A stretch of 64,000 nt of DNA from Burkholderia ambifaria AMMD (GTDB lineage Bacteria; Pseudomonadota; Gammaproteobacteria; Burkholderiales; Burkholderiaceae). The DNA lies in assembly GCF_000203915.1 (NCBI RefSeq), contig NC_008391.1, positions 186,001 to 250,000 of the forward strand, written 5' to 3'. Made by a program: the position numbers and the translations under genes. Numbering within the stretch: the stretch's first letter is position 1; the number at the start of each line of letters is the position of its first letter. Shown one piece after another: positions 1,944 to 13,934 of this stretch. The notes beneath the pieces are model-generated. The model was not told where the DNA came from and did not search any database. It saw only the letters and a list, made by a program, of their open reading frames with translations.

Positions 1944-2827
1944 GGCCGCACCTCCAGGCGCTCGGGCACGAGCCCGTGCGGGCGCCAGATCACGCATGCG
2001 AGCAGCATCAGGCCGACCAGGCCGAGCCGCACCGCGCCGGTCAGGTCGCTGCCGACCCCGAGCCAGTCCTTGAGAAACGGCGCCAGCGCGTAGACGGCCT
2101 GCACGATCAGTGTGCCCACCAGCACGCCTGCGTGGCTGCCGAGGCCGCCGACCATCACGACGGTCCAGAGCGCGAAGGTCTCGGACGCGATCATCGCGTC
2201 CGGCCCGACATAGCCGATGTACCAGGTGGCGAGCGCCCCGGCGACCGCCGCAGGGAGCGCGCCGGCGATGCACGCACGCGTTTTCAGCGCGAGCGGATCG
2301 TAGCCGAAGCAGACCGCGAGCGCGGGTTCCTCGCGCATCACCTTCAGCGCGCGGCCGAAGCGGCTTGCGGTCAGGCGCCGGTACGTCGCGTAGGTGAGCG
2401 CGAGGCAGCCGGCCGTGACCGCGAGGAAGGCGAGGTCGGCCCACGGCGCCCGCAGCCCGGGGAACAGCGGCGCGATGCCGCCGATTCCTTGCGCGCCGCC
2501 GGTGAGCCAGCTTTCGTTGAGCGCGGTCGTGCGCAGGATCTCCGCGATTGCGAGCGTCGCGATCCCCCAATAGTCGGCGGCGAGCTGCCGTCCCAACCGT
2601 GCGACGACGAGCGCCAGCGCACCGGCCGCGGCCACGGCGAGCGCCAGCGCCGACAACAACGGCCAGCCGAGCTGCGACGCGATGCCGGCCGCGTACGCGC
2701 CGAGCCCGGCGAACGCGATGAAGCCGAAGTTGACGAGCCCCGCATAGCCGGCCTGCAGGTTCAGCCCGAGCGCCATCGTCGCGTACAGGCAGCCGATGGT
2801 CAGCAGATGGATGACGAAGCTAGACAC
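1940..2827 (-). CDS. livM: Branched-chain-type amino-acid ABC transporter permease LivM
   Basis: Protein of 295 aa with about eight to nine hydrophobic segments. It has the LivM hallmarks NLQAGYAGLVNFGFIAF (about residues 23-39) and, near the C-terminus, the conserved GGLGSHAGVLVG loop that contacts the ATPases. It forms the membrane channel with LivH. It overlaps livG by four bases and livH by eight bases, so the operon is tightly coupled in the order binding protein, H, M, G, F. At 295 aa it is shorter than the E. coli LivM but normal for proteobacterial HAAT-family members. Confidence 0.93.
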   Translation of the reverse strand: MSSFVIHLLTIGCLYATMALGLNLQAGYAGLVNFGFIAFAGLGAYAAGIASQLGWPLLSALALAVAAAGALALVVARLGRQLAADYWGIATLAIAEILRTTALNESWLTGGAQGIGGIAPLFPGLRAPWADLAFLAVTAGCLALTYATYRRLTASRFGRALKVMREEPALAVCFGYDPLALKTRACIAGALPAAVAGALATWYIGYVGPDAMIASETFALWTVVMVGGLGSHAGVLVGTLIVQAVYALAPFLKDWLGVGSDLTGAVRLGLVGLMLLACVIWRPHGLVPERLEVRP

Positions 2828-3713
2828 GCCGCACCTCCCGATCGAAGATTCCGTAGGGCCGGAAGATCAGCGCGACGAGCAGGATCGCGAACGACACTGC
2901 GCCGACATACTCGACCGGAAAGAACTGCATCGGCCGATCGACGAGCGTGCCGAAATCGACGTTCAACGCGACGGTTTCGGCGAGCGCGATCAGCAGCGCG
3001 CCCGCCGCGGCGCCGAGCGGGTTGCCGAGACCACCCAGGATCGCCGCGGAGAACACCGGAATCAGCAGCCCGTAGCCGAGATTCACGTGCACGCTCTCGG
3101 TGGCGCCGAGCATCGTGCCGCCGAGCGCCGCCAGCACGCCGCTCGCGAACGTGATCACGTTCGTCACGCGCGTCGCGTCGATACCGGTCGCGAGCGCCAG
3201 TGCGCGATTCGATGCGAGCGCACGCATCGCCCGCCCAAGGCCGGTGCGGTACAGCAGCGCCGCGAACAGGGCGAGCGCGCCGGCGCCGCATGCGATCGAG
3301 CCCAACTGCGGCACGGACAGCGCGACGCCGGCGATCACCATCGGCGGATGCACGTCCTGCGCATACTGCTGCGGCCGCGAGCCGGCGATGCCGAGCACCA
3401 GCGCGACCGCCAGCATCGAGATCGCGAGCGAGCCGATCATCGCCACCGCGCTGCCGGAGCGCAGCAGCCGCGCAAACACGAACAGGTTCAGAAGCGTCGC
3501 GACGGTGCCGATCAGCACGCAGGACACGGCCGTCGCGAGCGCGAACGGCAGCCCCGCGCGTTCCAGCCAGAGCGTCGCGAATGCGCCGAGCATCGCGTAC
3601 TGGACGTGCGCGATGTTGGGAAAGCGGATCAGCGAATAGAGCGTCGACAGGCCGACCGACACAAGCATCAGATCGGCGGTGCGGATCAGTACGTCGACAA
3701 TGAATGACAGCAT
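2820..3713 (-). CDS. livH: Branched-chain-type amino-acid ABC transporter permease LivH
   Basis: Protein of 297 aa with eight or more membrane segments. Family landmarks are the N-terminal SVGLSTLYSLIRFPNIAHVQYAML region, the central ALASNRALALATGID stretch and GGLGNPLGAAAGA near residue 230. It is the second membrane subunit of the importer. The gene lies 35 bp downstream of the binding-protein gene and overlaps livM by eight bases. Confidence 0.93.
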   Translation of the reverse strand: MLSFIVDVLIRTADLMLVSVGLSTLYSLIRFPNIAHVQYAMLGAFATLWLERAGLPFALATAVSCVLIGTVATLLNLFVFARLLRSGSAVAMIGSLAISMLAVALVLGIAGSRPQQYAQDVHPPMVIAGVALSVPQLGSIACGAGALALFAALLYRTGLGRAMRALASNRALALATGIDATRVTNVITFASGVLAALGGTMLGATESVHVNLGYGLLIPVFSAAILGGLGNPLGAAAGALLIALAETVALNVDFGTLVDRPMQFFPVEYVGAVSFAILLVALIFRPYGIFDREVRRV

Positions 3714-3748: not shown

Positions 3749-4849
3749 TCACTGCTGCGCGACGACCGATTGGCGGTAGACCACCTTCTCGTAGGGCTGG
3801 ACTTCCCGCTGGCCGTCGGCATCGAACGCGATCGCGCCGGTCACGCCGGTATACGACTTGCCCAATGCCGCGAGCGCCGTACGAATCTTCGCCGGGTCGA
3901 TGGATTGCGCGCGGCCGATCGCCGCGGCGGACAACAGCGTCGCGTCGTACGCATAGCTGCCGAACGCCGATCGCGGGGCCTCGTTGTACGCGGCTTGATA
4001 GGCGCTCGCATACGCTTTCGCGCCCGCGCCGAGCGCGGCGACCTCCAGGCCGATCTGGCCTTGCGCGATCTGCGCAGGCGTGTCGCTCGTGCACATCGTC
4101 AGATAGATGCCGTACCACGGATGCTGGTTGAGCCGCATCTCGAATGCCTGCCGGTTCAGCGTCGCGGCCTCCTGGCCGTATGCGCTGTAGACATACGCGT
4201 CGGGCTGCGCGCGCGACGCCTGCTCCAGTTCGCGGCGATAGGTCGATTGTCCTTCCGTGTAGAGCACCGTCGACACCACCGTGCCGCCGAGCGCCTCGAA
4301 ACGCTTCCTGAACTCGCCCGCGATGCCCTGGCCATAGCCGTTGTTCGGCGCGATCAGCGCGATGCGGCGCAGCTTGCGGGCGTACACGTCCTGAGCGGCG
4401 AAGCGCGCGGACAGGTCGTCCAGCCCGATCACGCTGAACGAGCCTGCGCCGATCTTGCGCACTTGCTGACTCGACGAGCCGATGTTGATGTGCACGTCGC
4501 CCTGGCGTACCAGGAACTGTCCGACGGGAATCGTCACCGACGACGAGAATTCGCCGAGCACGACCGGCACGTGCTCGACGGTCGCGAGCTTGCGCGCCGC
4601 GTCGAGGGCGGTGTTGGCCGAGCCGCCCGAATCCTCGATTCGCACGGCGAGCTTCTGGCCCAGCACGCCGCCTTTCGCATTGATCTGCGCGACGGCGAGC
4701 TCGATGCCGCGGCGCTGGTCTTCGCCGATCGACGCACTCGCGCCGGTCAGCGGCAGCACCGCGCCCACGCTGACGTCGGCCTGCGTAGCGCCAGAGGCAA
4801 CCGCCCCGAGCGCGATCCAGATACCGACACTCCATTGACTTGCCTTCAT
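3749..4849 (-). CDS. Periplasmic amino-acid-binding protein, LivJ/LivK-like
   Basis: Protein of 366 aa with a Sec signal peptide (hydrophobic stretch VGIWIALGAVASGATQA, cleavage probably after residue 24). A Peripla_BP_6 type I binding fold follows, starting VSVGAVLPLTGASASIGED. It delivers the substrate to LivHMGF. The ATG at 4849 is chosen because it has a GGGAG Shine-Dalgarno at the right distance and starts directly at the signal peptide; a longer frame to 4924 has neither. The mature protein lacks anything that would let me assign the ligand. Linkage to RidA, a DadA-like dehydrogenase and a racemase-fold enzyme argues for an amino acid. Confidence 0.88.
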   Translation of the reverse strand: MKASQWSVGIWIALGAVASGATQADVSVGAVLPLTGASASIGEDQRRGIELAVAQINAKGGVLGQKLAVRIEDSGGSANTALDAARKLATVEHVPVVLGEFSSSVTIPVGQFLVRQGDVHINIGSSSQQVRKIGAGSFSVIGLDDLSARFAAQDVYARKLRRIALIAPNNGYGQGIAGEFRKRFEALGGTVVSTVLYTEGQSTYRRELEQASRAQPDAYVYSAYGQEAATLNRQAFEMRLNQHPWYGIYLTMCTSDTPAQIAQGQIGLEVAALGAGAKAYASAYQAAYNEAPRSAFGSYAYDATLLSAAAIGRAQSIDPAKIRTALAALGKSYTGVTGAIAFDADGQREVQPYEKVVYRQSVVAQQ

Positions 4850-5167
4850 CTTCGTTCTCCCGTCGCATGGTCGGCCGCGTGAAAGGCGGCGTGGTTTGAT
4901 ATACAGAAGTGTCGACAGAATCACAGATCAAAAATCGTTTGCAAATAAATTTTCGAGTCGCTGTGAAGAATCGAGAAAGCCTCGGAGATGATAGAAAAAT
5001 CGCCCTGTTTTCATGCATTTATGCACGCAGATAAAGATCGTGGATAGCCGTGGTGCACACTCGCGCCACGATTGGGCAATGGAGAATATTTCTGAAAAAA
5101 GTGTATACAGAGGTGAATTGCAGTGCTTAAATCTGCCCAACTCGACACGACATCGGAGGGTAGTCAG
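4850..5167. promoter_or_regulatory. Divergent control region between liv operon and ridA-dadA operon
   Basis: This 318-bp gene-free stretch separates two divergent operons and is clearly more AT-rich than its surroundings. It contains two copies of the same 12-base element, TATACAGARGTG, at 4900-4911 and 5104-5115. One lies near each operon start, and both embed the TATAC half of a GTATAC palindrome. FadR-type GntR regulators commonly bind short TGTATACA-like palindromes, and such a regulator is encoded at 7742-8443. Operator function is inferred from repetition and position only. Confidence 0.5.
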
Positions 5168-5518
5168 ATGCTGGAGATCAAGCGATATGGCGTGGGTGAA
5201 CGGATGAGCCAGCTGGTCGTCGCGGGCGGGCTGGCATTCGTCTCTGGGCAGGTGGCGGACGACACGTCGCTCGACGTTGCCGGGCAGACCCGTCAGATTC
5301 TCGACAAGATCGATCAACTGCTCGACAGCGCGGGGCTCGACAAGCGCCGGATCGTGTCCGCGAGCATCTGGCTTGCCGACTATCGCAGCTTCGCCGAGAT
5401 GAACAGCGTATGGGACGCGTGGGTACCGCAGGGCGAAGCGCCGGCACGCGCGTGCGTCGAATCGAAGCTCGCGTTTCCCCAGTACACGGTCGAGATCGCG
5501 GCGATTGCCGCGAGCTAG
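5168..5518 (+). CDS. RidA/YjgF family protein (enamine/imine deaminase)
   Basis: Protein of 116 aa with the RidA fold signature: VVAGGLAFVSGQVADD near residues 18-33 and the C-terminal ACVESKLAFPQYTVEIAAIAAS. The arginine of the canonical active-site motif R(V)xxxxL is replaced here (ACVESKLAFP), so it belongs to a Rid subfamily other than archetypal RidA. Its start is fixed by a GGAGG site six bases upstream of the ATG. RidA proteins hydrolyse reactive imines released by amino-acid oxidases and dehydratases. That fits the FAD amino-acid dehydrogenase encoded immediately downstream. Confidence 0.85.
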   Translation: MLEIKRYGVGERMSQLVVAGGLAFVSGQVADDTSLDVAGQTRQILDKIDQLLDSAGLDKRRIVSASIWLADYRSFAEMNSVWDAWVPQGEAPARACVESKLAFPQYTVEIAAIAAS

Positions 5519-5581
5519 GGTCTGTTCATGAACTTTTTAATTCGTGGCAACGCATGCGCGTTCCATATGTAAACAGACCCT
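5517..5581. repeat. 65-bp element bounded by perfect 10-bp inverted repeats
   Basis: AGGGTCTGTT at 5517-5526 is exactly repeated in inverse as AACAGACCCT at 5572-5581. The element starts inside the ridA TAG codon and ends 14 bases before the dadA-like ATG, filling the whole intergenic gap. It could form a long stem in the mRNA, act as an operator, or be a tiny non-autonomous insertion. I cannot decide between these. Confidence 0.6.
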
Positions 5582-5595
5582 GGGAGAACCGAACG

Positions 5596-6840
5596 ATGAA
5601 GACGATCGTGCTCGGCGGCGGCATCGTCGGCGTGACAACCGCGTATTTTCTCGCGAAGGCGGGCGACGAGGTGACGGTGATCGAACGTCGCGGCGGCGTC
5701 GCGCTCGAGACGAGCTTCGCGAACGCGGGGTTGATCGCCCCCGGTCATTCGTACACGTGGGCGTCGCCGCGCGCGCCGAAGATTCTCTTCAAGTCGCTGT
5801 TTGCCGACGGCCAGGCGCTGCGGCTCAAATGGACGCCCGACTGGCGAATGTGGGCATGGTGCGGGCTGTTCCTGCAGAACTGCACGGCCGAGCGCTCGCG
5901 ACGAAACACGTCGATCAAGGTGCGGCTGTGTCGTTATTCGCAGCAGCGGCTTCAGCAGGCGACGCACGACGAACTGCTCGAGTACGACCGGACGAGTGGA
6001 GGACTGTTGTACCTGTATCGGGATCCGGCGTCGTTCGACCGCGGCGTCGCGAACATGCGGATTCTGACCGACAACGGTCTGCCGCTCGATATCCTGGACG
6101 CGCGGGCCACCGTCGAACGCGAGCCCGCGCTGCGCCATGCGGCGGGCGGGATCGCGGGTGCGATTCATTGCCCGACCGACGAGAGCGGCGACGCGCATCT
6201 CTTCACGCGCGCACTCGCCGAGCGCTGCCGTGCGCTCGGTGTCGAATTCCGCTTCGACACGTCGATCGACGGCGTGCGCGCAAGCGCCGATGCGATCGAC
6301 TACGTCGAGACGTCGCACGGCCGCGTGACCGGCGATAGATACGTGCTCGCGCTCGGCTCGTATTCGCCGATCGTCGCTCGCGCGCTCGGTTACCGGTTGC
6401 CGATCTATCCGGTCAAGGGGTACTCGGTCACGCTGCCGATCCACGACACGCACGAGCCGCCCGCGCTCGGTGGCGTCGAAGAGAACCAATTGGTTGCATG
6501 GGCCCGCTTCGGCGACCGGCTGCGCCTGACCGCGACGGCCGAGTTCAGCGGCTACGACACCACGCATTCGCCGGGCGATTTCGCGCACATGCTGGCGACC
6601 GCACAGGCACTGTTCCCGAACGGCGCCGACTACTCGACACCGTCGTACTGGGCCGGGCTGCGGCCGATGACGCCGGAGGGCACGCCGATCATCGGCGCAT
6701 CCCGGCACCGCAACCTGTTTTTCAACACCGGCCACGGCCATATGGGCTGGACCATGTCGTGCGGCACCGCGCAGATCGTGGCGGATCTGATCCACGGCAA
6801 GCGGCCCGATATCGACATCACCGGGATGACACTGCAATGA
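5596..6840 (+). CDS. FAD-dependent D-amino-acid dehydrogenase-like oxidoreductase (DadA family)
   Basis: Protein of 414 aa, the DadA length. The N-terminal Rossmann motif VLGGGIVGVTTAYFLAKAGDEV (GxGxxG near residues 6-11) binds FAD. The C-terminus has the DAO-family signature GLRPMTPEGTPIIGASRHRNLFFNTGHGHMGWT. DadA oxidatively deaminates D-amino acids to 2-oxoacids and passes electrons to the respiratory chain at the inner membrane face. The ATG at 5596 has a GGGAG site upstream. It is cotranscribed with ridA and overlaps the next gene by ATGA, so imine production, imine hydrolysis and a racemase-type enzyme are encoded together. Substrate range is unknown. Confidence 0.87.
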   Translation: MKTIVLGGGIVGVTTAYFLAKAGDEVTVIERRGGVALETSFANAGLIAPGHSYTWASPRAPKILFKSLFADGQALRLKWTPDWRMWAWCGLFLQNCTAERSRRNTSIKVRLCRYSQQRLQQATHDELLEYDRTSGGLLYLYRDPASFDRGVANMRILTDNGLPLDILDARATVEREPALRHAAGGIAGAIHCPTDESGDAHLFTRALAERCRALGVEFRFDTSIDGVRASADAIDYVETSHGRVTGDRYVLALGSYSPIVARALGYRLPIYPVKGYSVTLPIHDTHEPPALGGVEENQLVAWARFGDRLRLTATAEFSGYDTTHSPGDFAHMLATAQALFPNGADYSTPSYWAGLRPMTPEGTPIIGASRHRNLFFNTGHGHMGWTMSCGTAQIVADLIHGKRPDIDITGMTLQ

Positions 6841-7652
6841 GCGAACTTCTCTCTTCCTCCCAGGCGCTCGGTCCGGGCGTCGGAGCCGGCGCGGTGCGCG
6901 ACGCCTACGCCCGCTTCGATTTCTCGCTCGACGCCGGCATCGCGCGGCGTGCGGCGATCGGCCTCGTCGTGCTTGCGACCGATCACACGATCGAATACGA
7001 GTGGCGGCGTCTGCTCGCCATCGATGGGGTCGCTTTCTACGAAAGCCGGATCGCGAATTCGGCCGAGATCACGGCCGAGACGCTCGCGCAGATGGACGGC
7101 GGGATTTGCGCTGCGGTCGAATTGATCCGGCCGGGCGAGCGCCTCGACGTCGTCGCGTTCGGCTGCACGTCGGCGTCGATGGTGCTCGGCGAAGAGCGTG
7201 TATTCGAGCGCATCCGCGAGGCGCGGCCCGGCGTCGCGTGCACCACGCCGATTACCGCGGCACGCGTCGCGCTCGCGGCGCTCGGCGCGCGTGGCGTCGC
7301 GCTGCTGACGCCGTACGAGCGCGCGATCAACGATGCGATGGCCACGTATCTGCGCGCGCGCGGCGTCGATATCGTGCGGGTGGGATCGTTCGAGCACCGC
7401 GACGACAACGAGGTCGCCCGGATCGAGCGCGCGTCGATCGAGCATGCGGTGCTGACGCTCGCCGCCGATCCGGCCGTCGATGCGGTATTCGTGTCGTGCA
7501 CGAGCCTTCGCATCGTCGACGCGCTGGCCGAAATCGAAGCGCGTGCGGGCAAGCCCGTGCTGTCGAGCAATCATGCGCTTGCGTGGCACGCGCTGCGGCT
7601 CGCGGGTATCGACGATCCCGTGCCGGGCTTTGGCAGCCTGCTGATGCGATGA
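6837..7652 (+). CDS. Asp/Glu/hydantoin racemase superfamily protein (maleate isomerase / arylmalonate decarboxylase-like)
   Basis: Protein of 271 aa. Two catalytic-cysteine motifs are visible, FGCTSASM (about residue 106) and VSCTSLRIV (about residue 223). This spacing is seen in maleate cis-trans isomerases and EutA-like proteins; racemases of the same fold use the same cysteine pair. The start overlaps the DadA-like stop (ATGA at 6837-6840), implying translational coupling. The role is probably isomerisation or racemisation of the acid handled by the operon. The sequence alone does not tell racemase from cis-trans isomerase. Confidence 0.75.
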   Translation: MSELLSSSQALGPGVGAGAVRDAYARFDFSLDAGIARRAAIGLVVLATDHTIEYEWRRLLAIDGVAFYESRIANSAEITAETLAQMDGGICAAVELIRPGERLDVVAFGCTSASMVLGEERVFERIREARPGVACTTPITAARVALAALGARGVALLTPYERAINDAMATYLRARGVDIVRVGSFEHRDDNEVARIERASIEHAVLTLAADPAVDAVFVSCTSLRIVDALAEIEARAGKPVLSSNHALAWHALRLAGIDDPVPGFGSLLMR

Positions 7653-7741
7653 CGCGTGGCGTGTTCATGTAAAAAGACGCGTGCCGGCGGATCGCCGATG
7701 GATAATGACGCGCGTGACAACAGGTGGAACCAGGAGACGAG

Positions 7742-8443
7742 ATGTCGACTTCCGTTATGGCCGGCCGGGAGACCGCGGCGCCGATGCGCACGGGCCTCAC
7801 GGTCAACGAGATTTACGAGCAGCTGAAACAGATGGCTGTGCTCTACAAGATTCGACCGGGCGAGCGGTTCAACGAGCTGGAACTCGCCGAGCGCTTCAAC
7901 GTGAGTCGCACGCCGATTCGCGAGGCACTGAACCGGCTCGTGGCCGAAAACCTGCTGGTGTTCGTGCCGAACCGCGGTTTCTTCATTCGGCAACTGGAGG
8001 GGAAGGATGTGTTCGATCTGTTCGAATTGCGCCGCTCGATCGAGTCGACCGCGGTGACGCTCGCATGCGAGCGCGCGTCGGACAACGACATCAAGGCGCT
8101 GCGGCGCTTCTGGAAGCAGGTGATGAAGAATGCCGCGCGAATGCCGTCGTCCGAGCTGGTCGTCAAGGACGAGCAGTTTCATCTGGAGCTTGCCGCGTTG
8201 TCGGGCAATGCCGAGATCGGCCGGGTGCTTCAAGGGATCAACGCGCGGATTCACTACGTGCGGTGGGTCGATGTCGATCAGCGGCGCAACGAGGCGTTCA
8301 CCGAGCATCTCGAGATTCTCGACGCGCTTGCCGAACGCGATGCGGCGCGTTGCGCGGCGCTGACCGACACGCATATCCGCTGGCGGATGGAGGAGATCAC
8401 GCGCGTCGTTCAGGCGAGCGTCGTCAAGCTGTACGCAAAATAG
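7742..8443 (+). CDS. GntR-family transcriptional regulator, FadR/FCD type
   Basis: Protein of 233 aa. The N-terminal winged helix-turn-helix spans about residues 20-85 (ELAERFNVSRTPIREALNRLVAENL is the recognition helix plus wing). An alpha-helical FCD domain follows (FDLFELRRSIESTAV, then DEQFHLELAALSGN with the metal-binding D and H). FCD domains bind small carboxylic acids. The ATG at 7742 is preceded by AGGAG; an in-frame GTG at 7724 would include the ribosome site and is rejected. It sits 89 bp after the racemase-fold gene and probably controls the ridA/liv pair, the rhamnose cluster, or both. Confidence 0.9.
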   Translation: MSTSVMAGRETAAPMRTGLTVNEIYEQLKQMAVLYKIRPGERFNELELAERFNVSRTPIREALNRLVAENLLVFVPNRGFFIRQLEGKDVFDLFELRRSIESTAVTLACERASDNDIKALRRFWKQVMKNAARMPSSELVVKDEQFHLELAALSGNAEIGRVLQGINARIHYVRWVDVDQRRNEAFTEHLEILDALAERDAARCAALTDTHIRWRMEEITRVVQASVVKLYAK

Positions 8444-8597: not shown

Positions 8598-9482
8598 ATG
8601 ACACACGGTACGTTGGTCACGCTGTACAAGCCGTCCGCGGCGCAGATCGCGCATTTGCTGACCTTGCCCGCGAAAAGCCCCGTCGTCGTCGCGGTCGATA
8701 ATTCGCCCGTTGCCGATCGCGCGCTGTACGCACGGCTCGCCGAAGGCGGCGTCGACGTGATCGCGAATCACAATCGCGGCGGAATCGCCGGTGCGTTCAA
8801 CGCCGGCGTCGAATTCCTGATCGGCCGCGGCTGCGACGTCTTCTTCATCTTCGATCAGGATTCGCACGTTCCGGACGACTATTTCGATCGAATGCTGTCC
8901 GGCTGCGCGCGGGTGGGCGACAGCCGCTTCCTGGTCGGCCCGCGGATCTTCAACCGCAATTTTCAGCGCGATCTGCCGTTGTTCACGGTGCGCCGCTGGT
9001 CGGCGCAGATCACGCCGATCCACGGCGGCGCGCATGGCCTGCTGTCGTGCTCGGTCATCATCTCGTCGGGCACCGCGATTTCGCTCGACGCGTATCGCGC
9101 GCTTGGCCGCTTCCGCGAGGACTTCTTCATCGACCACGTCGACGCGGAATACTGCATGCGCGCGCAGGCGCACGGCGTGCCGGTGCGCGTCAACGCCGAC
9201 GTGTCGCTGCCTCACGAGCTCGGCAGTCCGTCCGCGCAGCAGCACTGGCCGCGCGTCGAGATATTCGATCAGAGCGCGCTGCGCCACTACTATGCGGCGC
9301 GCAACTGCATCCTGGTTGCCCGCGACTACTGGCGGCGCTATCCGGCCATGCTGCTGATCAATCTCATTACGCTCAAGCACGTCGCGTTCGTGCTGCTGCA
9401 TGCGCGCAACAAGCGCGTGAAGCTGAAGGCGATCTATTGCGGCGTGACGGACGGGCTGCGGGGCCGGTACGGCCGGGTGTGA
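8598..9482 (+). CDS. Glycosyltransferase family 2, rhamnosyltransferase-like
   Basis: Protein of 294 aa, GT-A fold. Motifs: VVAVDNSP (about residues 29-36), ANHNRGGIAGAFNAGVE and FIFDQDSHVPDDYFDRM. The DQDS replaces the usual DDD nucleotide-sugar motif and is characteristic of dTDP-L-rhamnose-using transferases such as RhlC and O-antigen rhamnosyltransferases. The C-terminal half ends in basic, weakly hydrophobic helices. It stands between the GntR gene (154 bp away) and the sugar-catabolic operon (78 bp away), all on the plus strand. The acceptor is unknown; no other lipopolysaccharide or rhamnolipid genes are adjacent. Confidence 0.78.
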   Translation: MTHGTLVTLYKPSAAQIAHLLTLPAKSPVVVAVDNSPVADRALYARLAEGGVDVIANHNRGGIAGAFNAGVEFLIGRGCDVFFIFDQDSHVPDDYFDRMLSGCARVGDSRFLVGPRIFNRNFQRDLPLFTVRRWSAQITPIHGGAHGLLSCSVIISSGTAISLDAYRALGRFREDFFIDHVDAEYCMRAQAHGVPVRVNADVSLPHELGSPSAQQHWPRVEIFDQSALRHYYAARNCILVARDYWRRYPAMLLINLITLKHVAFVLLHARNKRVKLKAIYCGVTDGLRGRYGRV

Positions 9483-9560: not shown

Positions 9561-10496
9561 ATGAGCCTGCCTACGCCGATTCACCGCCGTTATACGGGCG
9601 CGTTTTCCGTCGCGCCGACGATCTTCACCGAGTCGGGCGAGATCGATATGCCGGGCCAGAAGCGCTGTATCGACTTCATCATCGATGCGGGAGCGGACGG
9701 CCTTTGCATCCTGGCGAACTACTCGGAGCAGTTTTCGTTGACCGACGAAGAGCGCGAGCGGCTCATCGCGGCGATCCTCGAACACGTGGCGGGACGCGTA
9801 CCGGTGATCGTGACGACCACGCATTTCAATCCGACAATCTGCGCGGCGCGCAGTCGCGCCGCGCAGGCGGCCGGTGCGGCGATGGTGATGGTGATGCCGC
9901 CGTACCACGGCGCGACGATTCGTTGCGGCGAAGCCGCGATCGAGCAGTTCTACGCGGAGCTCTCGGACGCGATCGCGATCCCGATCATGTATCAGGACGC
10001 GCCGATGAGCGGCACGCAGGTATCGGCCGCGTTTCTGGCACGCATCGCTCACACGATTCCGAATCTGCGCTATTTCAAGATAGAGGTGCCGCAGTCGGCG
10101 TCGAAGCTGCGCGAGCTGATCGCGCTCGGCGGCGACGCGATCGAGGGGCCATTCGACGGCGAGGAAGCGATCACGCTGCTCGCCGATCTCGATGCGGGGG
10201 CGACCGGCAGCATCCTCGGCGGCGGTTATCCGGACGGGCTGCGGCCGATTCTCGCCGCGTATCTTGCCGGGCGGCGCGACGAGGCGGTCGCCGGGTACGA
10301 GCGATGGCTGCCGTTGATCAATTACGAGAACCGTCAGGCCGGCCTGCTGGCGGCGAAGGCGCTGATGAAGGAGGGCGGCGTGATCGCGTCGGACGCGCCG
10401 CGCCGTCCGCTCGCGCCGCTGCATCCGGCGACGCGCGCGGGCCTGATCGAAATTGCGCGACGGCTCGATGCGCTGGTGCTGCGCTGGGCACGCTGA
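9561..10496 (+). CDS. DHDPS/NAL-superfamily enzyme, 2-keto-3-deoxy-L-arabinonate dehydratase-like
   Basis: Protein of 311 aa with the (beta/alpha)8 class I lyase fold. The Schiff-base lysine is K173 (YFKIEVP) and the catalytic tyrosine is Y144 (IMYQDAP). Instead of the GTTGE loop of true DapA, the protein has LCILANYSEQFSLTDEE at about 48-64. That loop, the GPFDGEEAITLLADLDAGATG stretch and the C-terminus RRLDALVLRWAR match my recollection of 2-keto-3-deoxy-L-arabinonate dehydratases. Those enzymes convert a 2-keto-3-deoxy-pentonate to 2-oxoglutarate semialdehyde. In this cluster its substrate would be the RhmD product; an aldolase reaction cannot be excluded. The ATG at 9561 has a GGAAT site. 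Confidence 0.75.
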   Translation: MSLPTPIHRRYTGAFSVAPTIFTESGEIDMPGQKRCIDFIIDAGADGLCILANYSEQFSLTDEERERLIAAILEHVAGRVPVIVTTTHFNPTICAARSRAAQAAGAAMVMVMPPYHGATIRCGEAAIEQFYAELSDAIAIPIMYQDAPMSGTQVSAAFLARIAHTIPNLRYFKIEVPQSASKLRELIALGGDAIEGPFDGEEAITLLADLDAGATGSILGGGYPDGLRPILAAYLAGRRDEAVAGYERWLPLINYENRQAGLLAAKALMKEGGVIASDAPRRPLAPLHPATRAGLIEIARRLDALVLRWAR

Positions 10497-10601
10497 CGCT
10501 ACCACCGCGCGGAACGACGTTGCGATTTTCCGCCGCCATCCGTGCGCATGACGCGCACGAGCGGCCTCCGCACTCGATGACCCAACCAAGGAACCCGAAG
10601 A

Positions 10602-11780
10602 ATGAGCATGCCGACGATACGCGCAGTCCGCGCGCTGACGGTGCGTGGTGGCGGTGCCGACTACCACGATCAGGATGCCGGTCACTGGATCGACGACCAC
10701 ATTGCGACGCCGATGTCGCGCTATCCCGAATACCGGCAGAGCCGCCAGTCGTTCGGCATCAACGTGCTCGGCACGCTCGTGATCGAAATCGAGGCCAGTG
10801 ATGGAACGGTCGGCTTTGCCGTGACGACCGGCGGCGAGATCGGCGCGTTCATCGTCGAGCGGCATCTCGCGCGCTTCATCGAAGGGCAGCGCGTGACCGA
10901 TATCGAAAAGATGTGGGATCAGATGTTCTACGCGACGCTGTACTACGGGCGCAAGGGTGTCGTGCTCAATGCGATTTCCGGCGTCGATCTTGCGCTGTGG
11001 GATCTGCTCGGCAAAGTGCGGCAAGAGCCCGTGCACCAGTTGCTCGGCGGCAAGGTGCGCGATGAGCTCGAGTTTTACGCAACCGGCGCACGGCCGGATC
11101 TCGCGAAGGAAATGGGCTTCATCGGCGGCAAGCTGCCGCTGCATCACGGCCCTGCCGAGGGGGACGCCGGTCTGCGCCGCAATCTCGATGCGCTCGCCGA
11201 CATGCGCTCGCGCGTCGGCGACGATTTCTGGCTGATGCTCGACTGCTGGATGAGTCTCGACGTGCCGTATGCGACACGGCTCGCGCACGGTGCGCACGCG
11301 CTCGGTCTGAAATGGATCGAGGAATGCCTGCCGCCGGACGACTACTGGGGCTATGCGAAGCTGCGCCGCGATGTGCCGCGCGGCATGCTCGTCACGACCG
11401 GCGAGCACGAGGCGACCCGCTGGGGCTTCCGGATGCTGCTGGAGATGGAGTGCTGCGACATCATTCAGCCGGACGTGGGCTGGTGCGGCGGGCTCACCGA
11501 GCTAATGCGCATCTCGGCGCTCGCCGACGCGCGCGGCGTGCTGGTGATTCCGCACGGGTCGTCGGTCTACAGCTATCACTTCGTCGCGACGCGGCACAAC
11601 AGCCCGTTCGCCGAATTCCTGATGATGGCGCCGCAGGCGGACCGCGTCGTGCCGATGTTCGATCCGCTGCTGCTCGACGAACCGGTGCCGGTCGGCGGGC
11701 GGATGAAGGTGCCGGACACCGCCGGCTTCGGCGTGCGCCTGAACCCGGACGTGCGCATGCAACGCCCGTATGAACACTGA
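10602..11780 (+). CDS. rhmD: L-rhamnonate dehydratase (enolase superfamily)
   Basis: Protein of 392 aa that closely follows E. coli RhmD in family-specific stretches ([20 protein letters not shown] near residue 33, [20 protein letters not shown] near 158). Enolase-superfamily magnesium ligands are D214 (MLDCW), E240 (WIEECLPP) and E268 (TTGEHE). The D291/H318 (QPDVGW, IPHGSS) dyad supplies the general base. It dehydrates L-rhamnonate to 2-keto-3-deoxy-L-rhamnonate; the family is also known to accept L-lyxonate and L-mannonate. It lies 18 bp before the dehydrogenase gene. An AAGGA site precedes the ATG. Confidence 0.9.
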
Positions 11781-11798
11781 GCGTACGGAGGGGGCGTA

Positions 11799-12587
11799 AT
11801 GACGAAGTTGCTTGAAGACAGGATCGTCGTCGTGACGGGCGGATCGCGCGGGATCGGCCGCGCGATCGCGCTGGCGTCTGCGCGGCATGGCGCCGACATC
11901 GTGATCAACTACTGGACGAACCCGCTGCTGCCCGCGCAGGCCGATCACGAGATCGACGCGCTCGTCGACGCGATCCGCGCGACGGGGCGCGACGCGCTCG
12001 CCGTGTCGGGCGACATCGCGCAGCCGGACACGGCGCACGCACTGGTCGCGGCGGCGGTGGAACGATTCGGCCGGATCGACGTGCTGGCGAGCAACGCCGG
12101 AATCTGTCCGTTCCACGGATTCCTGGACTTGCCGCCCGATCTGCTGCAAAGAACGATGGAAGTGAACCTGCACGGCACGTTCTACATGACGCAGGCCGCC
12201 GCACGACAAATGGCCGCGCAAGGGCACGGCGGTGCGATCGTCGCGACCAGCTCGATCAGCGCGCTGGTCGGCGGCGGCATGCAGACGCACTACACGCCGA
12301 CCAAGGCCGGCGTCCATGCGCTGATGCAATCGTGCGCGGTCGCGCTCGCTCCGCATCGGATCCGCTGCAATTCGGTGCTGCCGGGCACGATCCGGACCGA
12401 GATCAACGACAGCGATCTCGCGGCGCCCGGCAAGACCGAGTATTTCGAGCGCCGGATTCCGCTCGGTCGCCTGGGCGAGCCTGACGACGTCGCCGACTGT
12501 GTCGTGTTTCTCGCGTCCGACATGGCGCGCTACGTGAATGGCGCCGCGCTGCTCGTCGACGGCGGCATGTACGTGAACCTGCAGTGA
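11799..12587 (+). CDS. L-rhamnose 1-dehydrogenase-like SDR
   Basis: Protein of 262 aa, classical short-chain dehydrogenase. The cofactor motif TGGSRGIG is at residues 13-20, NAG at 99-101, and the catalytic serine, Y165 and K169 (YTPTK) follow. The insert INYWTNPLLPAQADHE (residues 36-51), the SNAGICPFHGFLDLPPDLL stretch and overall length fit L-rhamnose 1-dehydrogenases, which oxidise L-rhamnose (and L-lyxose) to the lactone. Genes before and after encode the dehydratase and mutarotase, so the assignment rests on both family and context. A GGAGGGG site lies upstream of the ATG. Confidence 0.82.
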   Translation: MTKLLEDRIVVVTGGSRGIGRAIALASARHGADIVINYWTNPLLPAQADHEIDALVDAIRATGRDALAVSGDIAQPDTAHALVAAAVERFGRIDVLASNAGICPFHGFLDLPPDLLQRTMEVNLHGTFYMTQAAARQMAAQGHGGAIVATSSISALVGGGMQTHYTPTKAGVHALMQSCAVALAPHRIRCNSVLPGTIRTEINDSDLAAPGKTEYFERRIPLGRLGEPDDVADCVVFLASDMARYVNGAALLVDGGMYVNLQ

Positions 12588-12604
12588 AACAACAAGGCAT
12601 GGTC

Positions 12605-12919
12605 ATGGAAACGATCGCCTTCAGGATGCGCCTGCACCCGGGCAAGCGAGACGAATATCGGCGCCGGCACGATGCGATCTGGCCGGAACTGGCCGACGCG
12701 CTTCGTGCAGCGGGCATATCGGACTACTGGATCTTTCTCGACGAAGACACCCATCATCTGTTCGCCGTGCTCAAGCGACCGATAGGTCATCGGATTGCGC
12801 AACTGGCCGAAACGGACGTGATGCGTCGCTGGTGGGCGTACATGGCCGACCTGATGGCGACCGGGCCGGACGGGCGTCCGGTCGAGAAATCGCTGGAGCC
12901 GATGTTTCATCTGGAATGA
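12605..12919 (+). CDS. rhaM: L-rhamnose mutarotase
   Basis: Protein of 104 aa with the RhaM signatures RRRHDAIWPEL (catalytic H22) and MRRWWAYMADLM, ending KSLEPMFHLE. It interconverts the anomers of L-rhamnose, supplying the pyranose form used by the dehydrogenase. Start is uncertain: in-frame ATG codons at 12599 and 12605 and a GTG at 12584 all follow the dehydrogenase stop. The 12605 start aligns best with known family N-termini. Presence of a mutarotase makes L-rhamnose or a 2,3-matching sugar such as L-lyxose the likely entry substrate. Confidence 0.9.
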   Translation: METIAFRMRLHPGKRDEYRRRHDAIWPELADALRAAGISDYWIFLDEDTHHLFAVLKRPIGHRIAQLAETDVMRRWWAYMADLMATGPDGRPVEKSLEPMFHLE

Positions 12920-13037
12920 GCCCGGCGCTTTTTGGGGCGCAGCGCGCACTATGCCGAGCGACGTCGATCGACGAACGCGCGGCGTGCGGCCGACCGTTGC
13001 GGCCCATCACCGATTCGCATGAACTCACGGAGCCACC

Positions 13038-13934
13038 ATGCAGATTGTCGATCCCCACGTCCATTTCTGGGATGCGGACATGCTCAGCTACAGCTGGCTC
13101 GATCGTGCACAGCCGGCGTTCTCCGGCGCGGTCGCGGATTTGCCGCGGCGGTACGGGCCTGCGGAGTTGCGCGCCGACGCCGGTGCGGATATCGACGTGC
13201 TGAAGGTCGTGCACGTGGAGGCGATCCACGATGCCTGGACGACACCGAGCGAAGTCGAGTGGCTACAGGCGCTTGCCGATGCGCCGGCGAGCGGCGGGAT
13301 GCCGGACGGCATCGTGGCGGGCGTCGACCTGTTTGCGCCGGACGCGCGCATCCGGCTCGCCGGCGCGGCGGCACATCGGAACGTGCGCGGCATCCGGCAG
13401 GTATTGAACCGGCATCCGGACCCCTGGTACAACTACGTCGACGTCGACTATCTAGCCGAACCGCGCTGGCGCGAAAACTTCGGAATGCTGGACGAATTCC
13501 GGTTGTCGTTCGACCTGCAACTGTACCCGGCTCAGGTCGGTGCGGCGCTCGCCGTGATCGATGCGCATCCGGACACGCCCGTGATCGTCAATCACACGGG
13601 CATGTTCGTCGATCGAACCAGCGTGCACGGCTGGCGCGAATGGCGCGACGGACTGCGCGGGCTCGCGCGGCGTGCGAACGTGACGATGAAGCTCTCCGGA
13701 CTCGCGATGTTCGACCATCGCTGGACGGTCGAAAGCTTCCGTCCGTACGTGCTGGAGGCGATCGACGTATTCGGCGCGACACGCTGCATGTTCGCATCCA
13801 ATTTCCCGGTCGACCGGCTCCATGCCGACTACGGGGCGCTCTGGCGCGCGTATGCGGCGATCGTCGCCGGCGCCGGCGAGGACGAGCGCGACGCGCTTTT
13901 CGCCGGCACTGCGATGCGGGTTTATCGGTTGTGA
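13038..13934 (+). CDS. Amidohydrolase-family sugar lactonase (L-rhamnono-1,4-lactonase-like)
   Basis: Protein of 298 aa of the amidohydrolase-2 / fuconolactonase group. The N-terminal metal motif is DPHVHFWD (H7, H9). Later VNHTGMF and ASNFPVDRL supply the histidine and aspartate expected of this fold. In the non-phosphorylative pathway it would hydrolyse L-rhamnono-lactone formed by the SDR to L-rhamnonate for RhmD. It is the last gene of the plus-strand operon, ending 35 bp before a strong terminator hairpin. Exact lactone specificity is inferred from context. Confidence 0.82.
   Translation: MQIVDPHVHFWDADMLSYSWLDRAQPAFSGAVADLPRRYGPAELRADAGADIDVLKVVHVEAIHDAWTTPSEVEWLQALADAPASGGMPDGIVAGVDLFAPDARIRLAGAAAHRNVRGIRQVLNRHPDPWYNYVDVDYLAEPRWRENFGMLDEFRLSFDLQLYPAQVGAALAVIDAHPDTPVIVNHTGMFVDRTSVHGWREWRDGLRGLARRANVTMKLSGLAMFDHRWTVESFRPYVLEAIDVFGATRCMFASNFPVDRLHADYGALWRAYAAIVAGAGEDERDALFAGTAMRVYRL

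Follow-up and report, generated by a model that had tools for sequence, protein, structure and literature searches.

Among the described pathways closest to the one considered here, L-rhamnose Route I shares the steps up to 2-keto-3-deoxy-L-rhamnonate (L-KDR) and ends with an aldolase (LRA4 or RhmA), and L-rhamnose Route III uses L-rhamnonate dehydratase (RhmD), L-rhamnose dehydrogenase, the mutarotase RhaM and a lactonase-like gene before ending with the dehydrogenase LRA5 and the hydrolase LRA6. L-arabinose Route II comprises the 2-keto-3-deoxy-L-pentonate (L-KDP) dehydratase of Azospirillum brasilense (PDB IDs: 3fkk, 7c0c–7c0e). In Pseudomonas aeruginosa an L-lyxonate pathway, published by Ghasempur in 2014, reportedly also combines an enolase-type dehydratase with a subsequent keto-deoxy-acid dehydratase; a different dehydratase subgroup is involved there, and neither a sugar dehydrogenase nor a mutarotase is known to take part. 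PMC11199699 (2024), in its passages on these routes, presents route 2 as pentose-specific and L-rhamnose as degraded by the dehydrogenase-plus-hydrolase route; the corresponding part of PMC6336799 gives the same three routes. Here we analyzed a 64,000-nucleotide stretch of Burkholderia ambifaria AMMD (NC_008391.1, positions 186,001–250,000; termed the window, whose own coordinates are used below), in which a 311-residue homologue of the 2-keto-3-deoxy-sugar-acid dehydratases, termed KDAd (9561–10496, + strand; DHDPS/NAL family), adjoins enzymes for rhamnose, unlike the Route II enzyme of A. brasilense. We tentatively propose, at slightly under an even chance, a non-phosphorylative L-rhamnose operon with a "Route II" ending, in which KDAd would turn L-KDR into 2,5-dioxohexanoate.

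Sequence comparison supports membership of KDAd in the KDA-dehydratase family rather than among DapA or the aldolases, as an earlier note on this DNA had argued. The closest solved relatives are structures of the characterized A. brasilense L-2-keto-3-deoxyarabonate (L-KDA) dehydratase, 7c0c (E 2e-136) and 3fkk (5e-136), with which KDAd shares a common fold and 67–68% identity, whereas the next chain followed at 7e-22. No NCBIfam model reached its cut-off, TIGR00674 (DapA) scoring 69.6 bits against a required 206. The catalytic Lys171, Gln143, Glu173 and Glu200 of A. brasilense align to the equivalent K173, Q145, E175 and E202, which were invariant in the 19 members of the clade containing KDAd as well as in 72/72 ordinary relatives. 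Based on this invariance, KDAd should dehydrate, and not cleave, a 2-keto-3-deoxy acid that carries a hydroxyl at C4 and a proton at C5. The stretch LCILANYSEQF had also been taken for a loop of the family, but the tyrosine of its LANYSEQF motif is not typical, 70 of the 72 ordinary members carrying phenylalanine.

All five genes reported for 9561–13934 were confirmed at their positions, each on the + strand. RhmD, an enolase-superfamily member (10602–11780; NF011968, 775 bits, cut-off 393; PDB relatives 2oz3 and 2i5q), a short-chain dehydrogenase/reductase (SDR) matching L-rhamnose 1-dehydrogenase of the Lra1 type (11799–12587; NF053807, 434.5 bits, cut-off 400; best PDB match 7b81, identical in sequence to 7do5) and RhaM (12584–12919; TIGR02625, 107.1, cut-off 99.6; PF05336) each exceeded the cut-off of a curated model and constitute a non-phosphorylative L-rhamnose set. 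The fifth gene encodes a PF04909 amidohydrolase (13038–13934), a probable aldonolactonase that reached 88 bits with the L-fucono-1,5-lactonase model (cut-off 400). Common strand, gene order and conservation suggest a single operon, the spacings from KDAd to the amidohydrolase being 105, 18, −4 and 118 bp; a scan for promoters and terminators around these genes gave no signal exceeding chance. The gene content described before therefore stands, with "operon" and "lactonase" as predictions.

No known rhamnose-pathway ending was found inside the KDAd cluster, in line with the earlier claim that neither an HpcH-type aldolase nor a dehydrogenase-plus-hydrolase pair is present. The tblastn queries (E 1e-5) were LRA5 and single references for LRA6, the RhmA aldolase of Escherichia coli (the only aldolase type queried) and an aldehyde dehydrogenase (ALDH), run against the window and against stretches of 12–21 kb at the other 18 clade loci. 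LRA6, RhmA and ALDH yielded no match in any of these loci, and LRA5 matched solely the rhamnose dehydrogenase or its remnant (30–33%), plus one 146-residue piece at the edge of the Paraburkholderia locus L196. The cluster thereby differs from Route III, having KDAd where LRA5 and LRA6 were not found, and the clade loci differ from Route I after L-KDR.

In the family's ordinary rhamnose clusters, a KDR 4-dehydrogenase mostly takes the place of KDAd. RhmD was detected at E 1e-110 in 93/299 family genomes, and among 20 neighborhoods hand-picked from the 85 outside the window's genus, 18 held an LRA5 relative (73–87%) and five an LRA6 relative (77–85%); the LRA6-type protein of one locus, L170, scored 443.6 bits against the NF053535 cut-off of 500. 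Six named plasmid RhmD loci comprised four with a fumarylacetoacetate-hydrolase family gene and an SDR, one with an RhmA aldolase and one with neither. The window's cluster thus departs from these relatives at the last step. A rhamnose cluster of the Route III type was also observed beside TniB/TniQ transposition genes on the Burkholderia cenocepacia plasmid pBcn842-1, typed as conjugative (L230, 5953–12400). Two further comparisons were set aside: ALDH genes neighbor KDAd in 0/19 clade loci vs 15/70 ordinary loci, a contrast too weak to report on the product, and the presence of LRA6 does not discriminate, since some homologue occurred in all 21 genomes searched, the Enterobacterales genome G448 reaching only 36% over the full length and 41% over a part.

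A rapidly built tree from 96 KDAd proteins, of which 19 belong to the clade, 73 are ordinary and four form the outgroup, placed the window's enzyme in a group of 19, apart from its ordinary relatives (Shimodaira–Hasegawa-like approximate likelihood ratio test, SH-aLRT, 99). The earlier note had envisaged a tree including aldolases and DapA; ours spans the KDAd family, within which the clade emerged as a sister group. It comprises nine Burkholderia, one Caballeronia and seven Paraburkholderia proteins together with a sister pair from a Pseudomonas (locus L105) and an Enterobacterales metagenome-assembled genome (MAG; L142). S16, I40, A45, Y144, V154 and L219 were fixed in 19/19 clade rows and absent from all 72 ordinary rows, where position 16 is P (72), 40 is M (71) or L (1), 45 is S (70) or V (2), 144 is I (59) or V (13), 154 is L (67) or M (5) and 219 is T (72). 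These counts exclude four Pseudomonas outgroup rows of 54% identity, at least two of which show Y54 and A219. Where the A. brasilense enzyme has P, M, S, F, V, L and T, KDAd has S16, I40, A45, Y54, Y144, V154 and L219; Y54 likewise occurs in 19/19 clade rows. Modeling puts residue 16 in strand 1, 54 just past strand 2, 144 on strand 5 next to Gln145, and 219 where strand 8 ends, so that all four would lie on the catalytic face of the barrel.

The clade is rare. At E 1e-155 it was present in 9/65 genomes of the window's genus, in 7/144 and 1/58 of two related genera, in 1/378 of the genus sample around L105 (L105 itself, three further genomes having only relatives of 53–54%) and in 1/247 of the order sample around L142 (L142 itself). 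The AMMD genome also encodes a 66% identical paralogue adjoining a different enolase-superfamily dehydratase (642 bits to 3stp). Its locus (L055, 6563–13053) forms a second sugar-acid cluster with the 3stp-like dehydratase, the KDAd paralogue, an amidohydrolase (35%), a major facilitator superfamily (MFS) protein and a PdxA-like protein.

The comparison of clade loci, viewed outside the window in stretches of 12–21 kb, supports a real pairing of RhmD and KDAd that is present in several families: intact RhmD adjoins KDAd in 12/19 loci, from Burkholderia, Caballeronia, the Pseudomonas and the Enterobacterales MAG. L142 adds RhaM, the amidohydrolase, the dehydrogenase and a RhaT above cut-off. 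L105 holds RhmD and an MFS protein 58% like that of rhamnose clusters, and SDR, RhaM and amidohydrolase were not found at this locus. Among 80 GTDB loci, ten were clade members (mostly contigs already counted), six of them with RhmD; no RhmD match above 36% emerged from the remaining 70, which include short contigs. Between the LIV transporter and KDAd, both L105 (8032–9342) and L142 (7883–9064) carry an MFS-like open reading frame (ORF), that of L142 scoring 163.7 bits with the Bcr/CflA efflux model (cut-off 200.9); the ORF possibly encodes an exporter of a pathway product. In the 17 Burkholderiaceae loci, a GT2 family glycosyltransferase gene (82–99% identical; not found in L105 and L142) sits between a GntR gene and KDAd; in the window it is rhamnosyltransferase-like (8598–9482, +) and scores under the cut-off of the rhamnosyltransferase model.

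KDAd is likewise tied to an upstream amino-acid module, which the earlier note had missed and which alters the interpretation. In the window the module (5123–8443) encodes, on the + strand, a RidA family protein (5123–5518; PF01042), a D-amino-acid dehydrogenase-like oxidase dependent on flavin adenine dinucleotide (FAD), termed DadA (5596–6840; PF01266), a racemase-like protein (6837–7652; PF17645, EutA/arylmalonate-decarboxylase-like) and a GntR/FCD protein, a candidate regulator of the cluster (7724–8443). Divergent from these, on the − strand, lie a LIV-type ABC transporter substrate-binding protein (3749–4924), which belongs to the conserved module, and two putative LIV-type permease-like ORFs, named by location and letters (1940–2827 and 2820–3713). 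All 19 clade loci hold RidA, the oxidase, the racemase-like protein, GntR and the LIV binding protein alongside KDAd, and with such a constant partner KDAd may also, or first, serve an amino-acid pathway. Among annotated plasmid loci, six that encode a relative of the racemase-like protein were inspected, and most of these hold parts of the module. Three of them (L218, L219 and L222) have an indolepyruvate:ferredoxin oxidoreductase family gene and gave no KDAd by tblastn, their content suggesting a pathway from D-amino acids to 2-oxo acids; in L219 a dapA-annotated gene lies ~10 kb off.

The linked genes do not share one history. KDAd-linked RhmDs do not form one clade (approximately unbiased test, p_AU 0.0004; 0.0025 without L142), so that RhmD was either paired with KDAd more than once or replaced, and the linked racemase-like proteins are not one clade either (p_AU 0.003). 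In their respective trees a single, non-significant branch sets apart linked DadA (support 93) and linked RidA (support 0), and GntR gave p 0.37, these three trees containing only 4 to 6 unlinked rows. Movement of all linked genes as a single block is hence rejected for RhmD and the racemase-like gene, and not for DadA, RidA and GntR. Seven of the 19 loci, all from Paraburkholderia, lack an intact RhmD. In one of these, L196 (7518–9190), pieces of a broken RhmD, an L-rhamnose dehydrogenase and an amidohydrolase lie downstream of the intact KDAd, and the KDAd tree nests the Caballeronia locus, whose RhmD is intact, next to L196. Based on these remnants and this nesting, the rhamnose genes were probably lost at the RhmD-less loci; a recent addition beside KDAd was dropped given the decayed pieces and L105/L142. 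Three of the seven RhmD-less genomes (G171, G075 and G265) hold a separate rhamnose cluster with LRA5, the other four lying outside the RhmD sample.

In the pathway that we propose, RhaM, SDR, amidohydrolase and RhmD would convert L-rhamnose via L-rhamnonate to L-KDR, as judged from the curated models and, in the case of the lactonase reaction, a weak match. KDAd would then act on L-KDR as its family acts on L-KDP: after formation of a Schiff base at Lys173, Glu175 and Glu202, assigned by alignment, would remove a proton, the C4 hydroxyl would leave and ketonization would release 2,5-dioxohexanoate, a Weimberg-like ending for a deoxyhexose. The clade changes at the barrel mouth, chiefly Thr219 to Leu, may accommodate the methyl-bearing C5–C6 end. 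That this product would then be converted to levulinyl-CoA by oxidative decarboxylation is speculative. L-rhamnose as the sugar, which we rate near one half, is favored by the hits to curated models, the RhaT gene of L142, T219L as a hydrophobic change, the separate paralogue with another dehydratase and, weakly, the missing ALDH in the clade loci.

Several observations weigh against this proposal. The catalytic set is identical to that of the pentonate dehydratases, and L-KDP may thus remain the substrate; Y54 is not unique to the clade, being shared by one of 72 ordinary rows, the AMMD paralogue itself; and where residue 219 lies with respect to the substrate is deduced from its modeled location at the end of strand 8. 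The cluster showed no enzyme that would act on 2,5-dioxohexanoate, and none is known to do so. The RhmD-less loci keep KDAd under purifying selection (ratio of non-synonymous to synonymous substitution rates, dN/dS, 0.03–0.07 in five pairs; 0.08–0.10 in two RhmD-linked pairs), and linked DadA forms one, albeit not significant, tree group where the RhmDs do not, so that KDAd may be part of the amino-acid module. LRA6 homologues (71% and 68%) occur elsewhere in the AMMD genome and also in the RhmD-less Burkholderia genomes G011 and G032; in the Pseudomonas a 68% homologue shares the contig of KDAd at a distance of 46 kb, beside an LRA5 match of only 33%. Finally, Burkholderia paludis appears as rhamnose-negative in the relevant part of PMC5174137, which would count against the proposal only if this species has the operon.

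In the main rival reading the sugar would be L-lyxose, or L-lyxonate would be imported; RhmD would yield L-KDP and KDAd 2-oxoglutarate semialdehyde, to be oxidized by a dehydrogenase encoded elsewhere, with all chemistry known. Enzymes of the RhmD, L-rhamnose dehydrogenase and RhaM types accept L-lyxose-series substrates, all known catalytic residues of the L-KDP dehydratase are kept, the semialdehyde has a known use, and L105 with KDAd, MFS and RhmD resembles an aldonate user; the L-arabinose-type KDAd cluster of the genome makes it likely that a semialdehyde dehydrogenase is encoded somewhere, although the surroundings of that cluster showed none. We nevertheless consider this reading unlikely, near one quarter, in view of the clade-specific barrel-mouth changes, the full rhamnose set with RhaT in L142, the presence in the genome of a KDAd paralogue paired with another dehydratase and, as a weak contrast, the ALDH counts. 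It is also less new than the earlier note assumed, the P. aeruginosa L-lyxonate pathway being cited in PMC6336799, whose passage includes a sentence on growth.

Quite unlikely, in our estimate, is a primary role of KDAd in the amino-acid module, where the FAD oxidase would yield a 2-oxo acid or a cyclic imine, as in 4-hydroxyproline breakdown, for KDAd to dehydrate or deaminate, the rhamnose genes being mere neighbors. Hydroxyproline clusters combine GntR, an ABC transporter, an oxidase and a DHDPS-family deaminase, and this reading fits the constant module, its retention with a selected KDAd in Paraburkholderia, the grouping of the linked oxidases and the dapA-annotated gene near the KDAd-free module of L219. 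It sits poorly with the identity to a characterized L-KDA dehydratase, the RhmD pairing across families, the scattered racemase-like proteins and the plasmid modules that have the oxidoreductase instead of KDAd. A combined role, which we regard as improbable, would make KDAd an L-KDR dehydratase forming 2,5-dioxohexanoate and at the same time a junction of two routes, one leading from L-rhamnose by way of RhmD and the other from a 4,5-dihydroxy-2-amino acid by way of the FAD oxidase and RidA; it would explain the constant module beside KDAd despite separate RhmD lineages. Very improbable, lastly, is KDAd as a leftover or backup paired without shared chemistry, with L-KDR processed by LRA5/LRA6-like enzymes encoded elsewhere: the LRA6 homologues of the genome would allow it, but similar ones occur in G011 and G032, 31% is the highest LRA5 match listed for the two surrounding regions, and KDAd is strongly conserved. 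Taken together, the interpretation of the earlier note is partly supported.

Among the matches listed from the open-access literature, mainly titles and abstracts, we found neither a KDR dehydratase nor 2,5-dioxohexanoate in this setting. Section 15 of PMC3870299, in the portion concerned, deals chiefly with phosphorylating routes and names no dehydratase ending for rhamnose; PMC7374468, in the text concerned, compares D- and L-KDP only, with no rhamnose data; PMC8231600 leaves rhamnose unmentioned; and the "dioxohexanoate" of PMC11961710 is 3,5-dioxohexanoate. The kind of pathway is thus known, and the dehydratase ending for L-rhamnose would, if right, be new. It would change the pentose-only view of route 2 found in the passages of PMC11199699 cited above, provide a natural source of 2,5-dioxohexanoate together with a missing next enzyme to seek, and allow better annotation of genes now labeled merely "dihydrodipicolinate synthase family protein".

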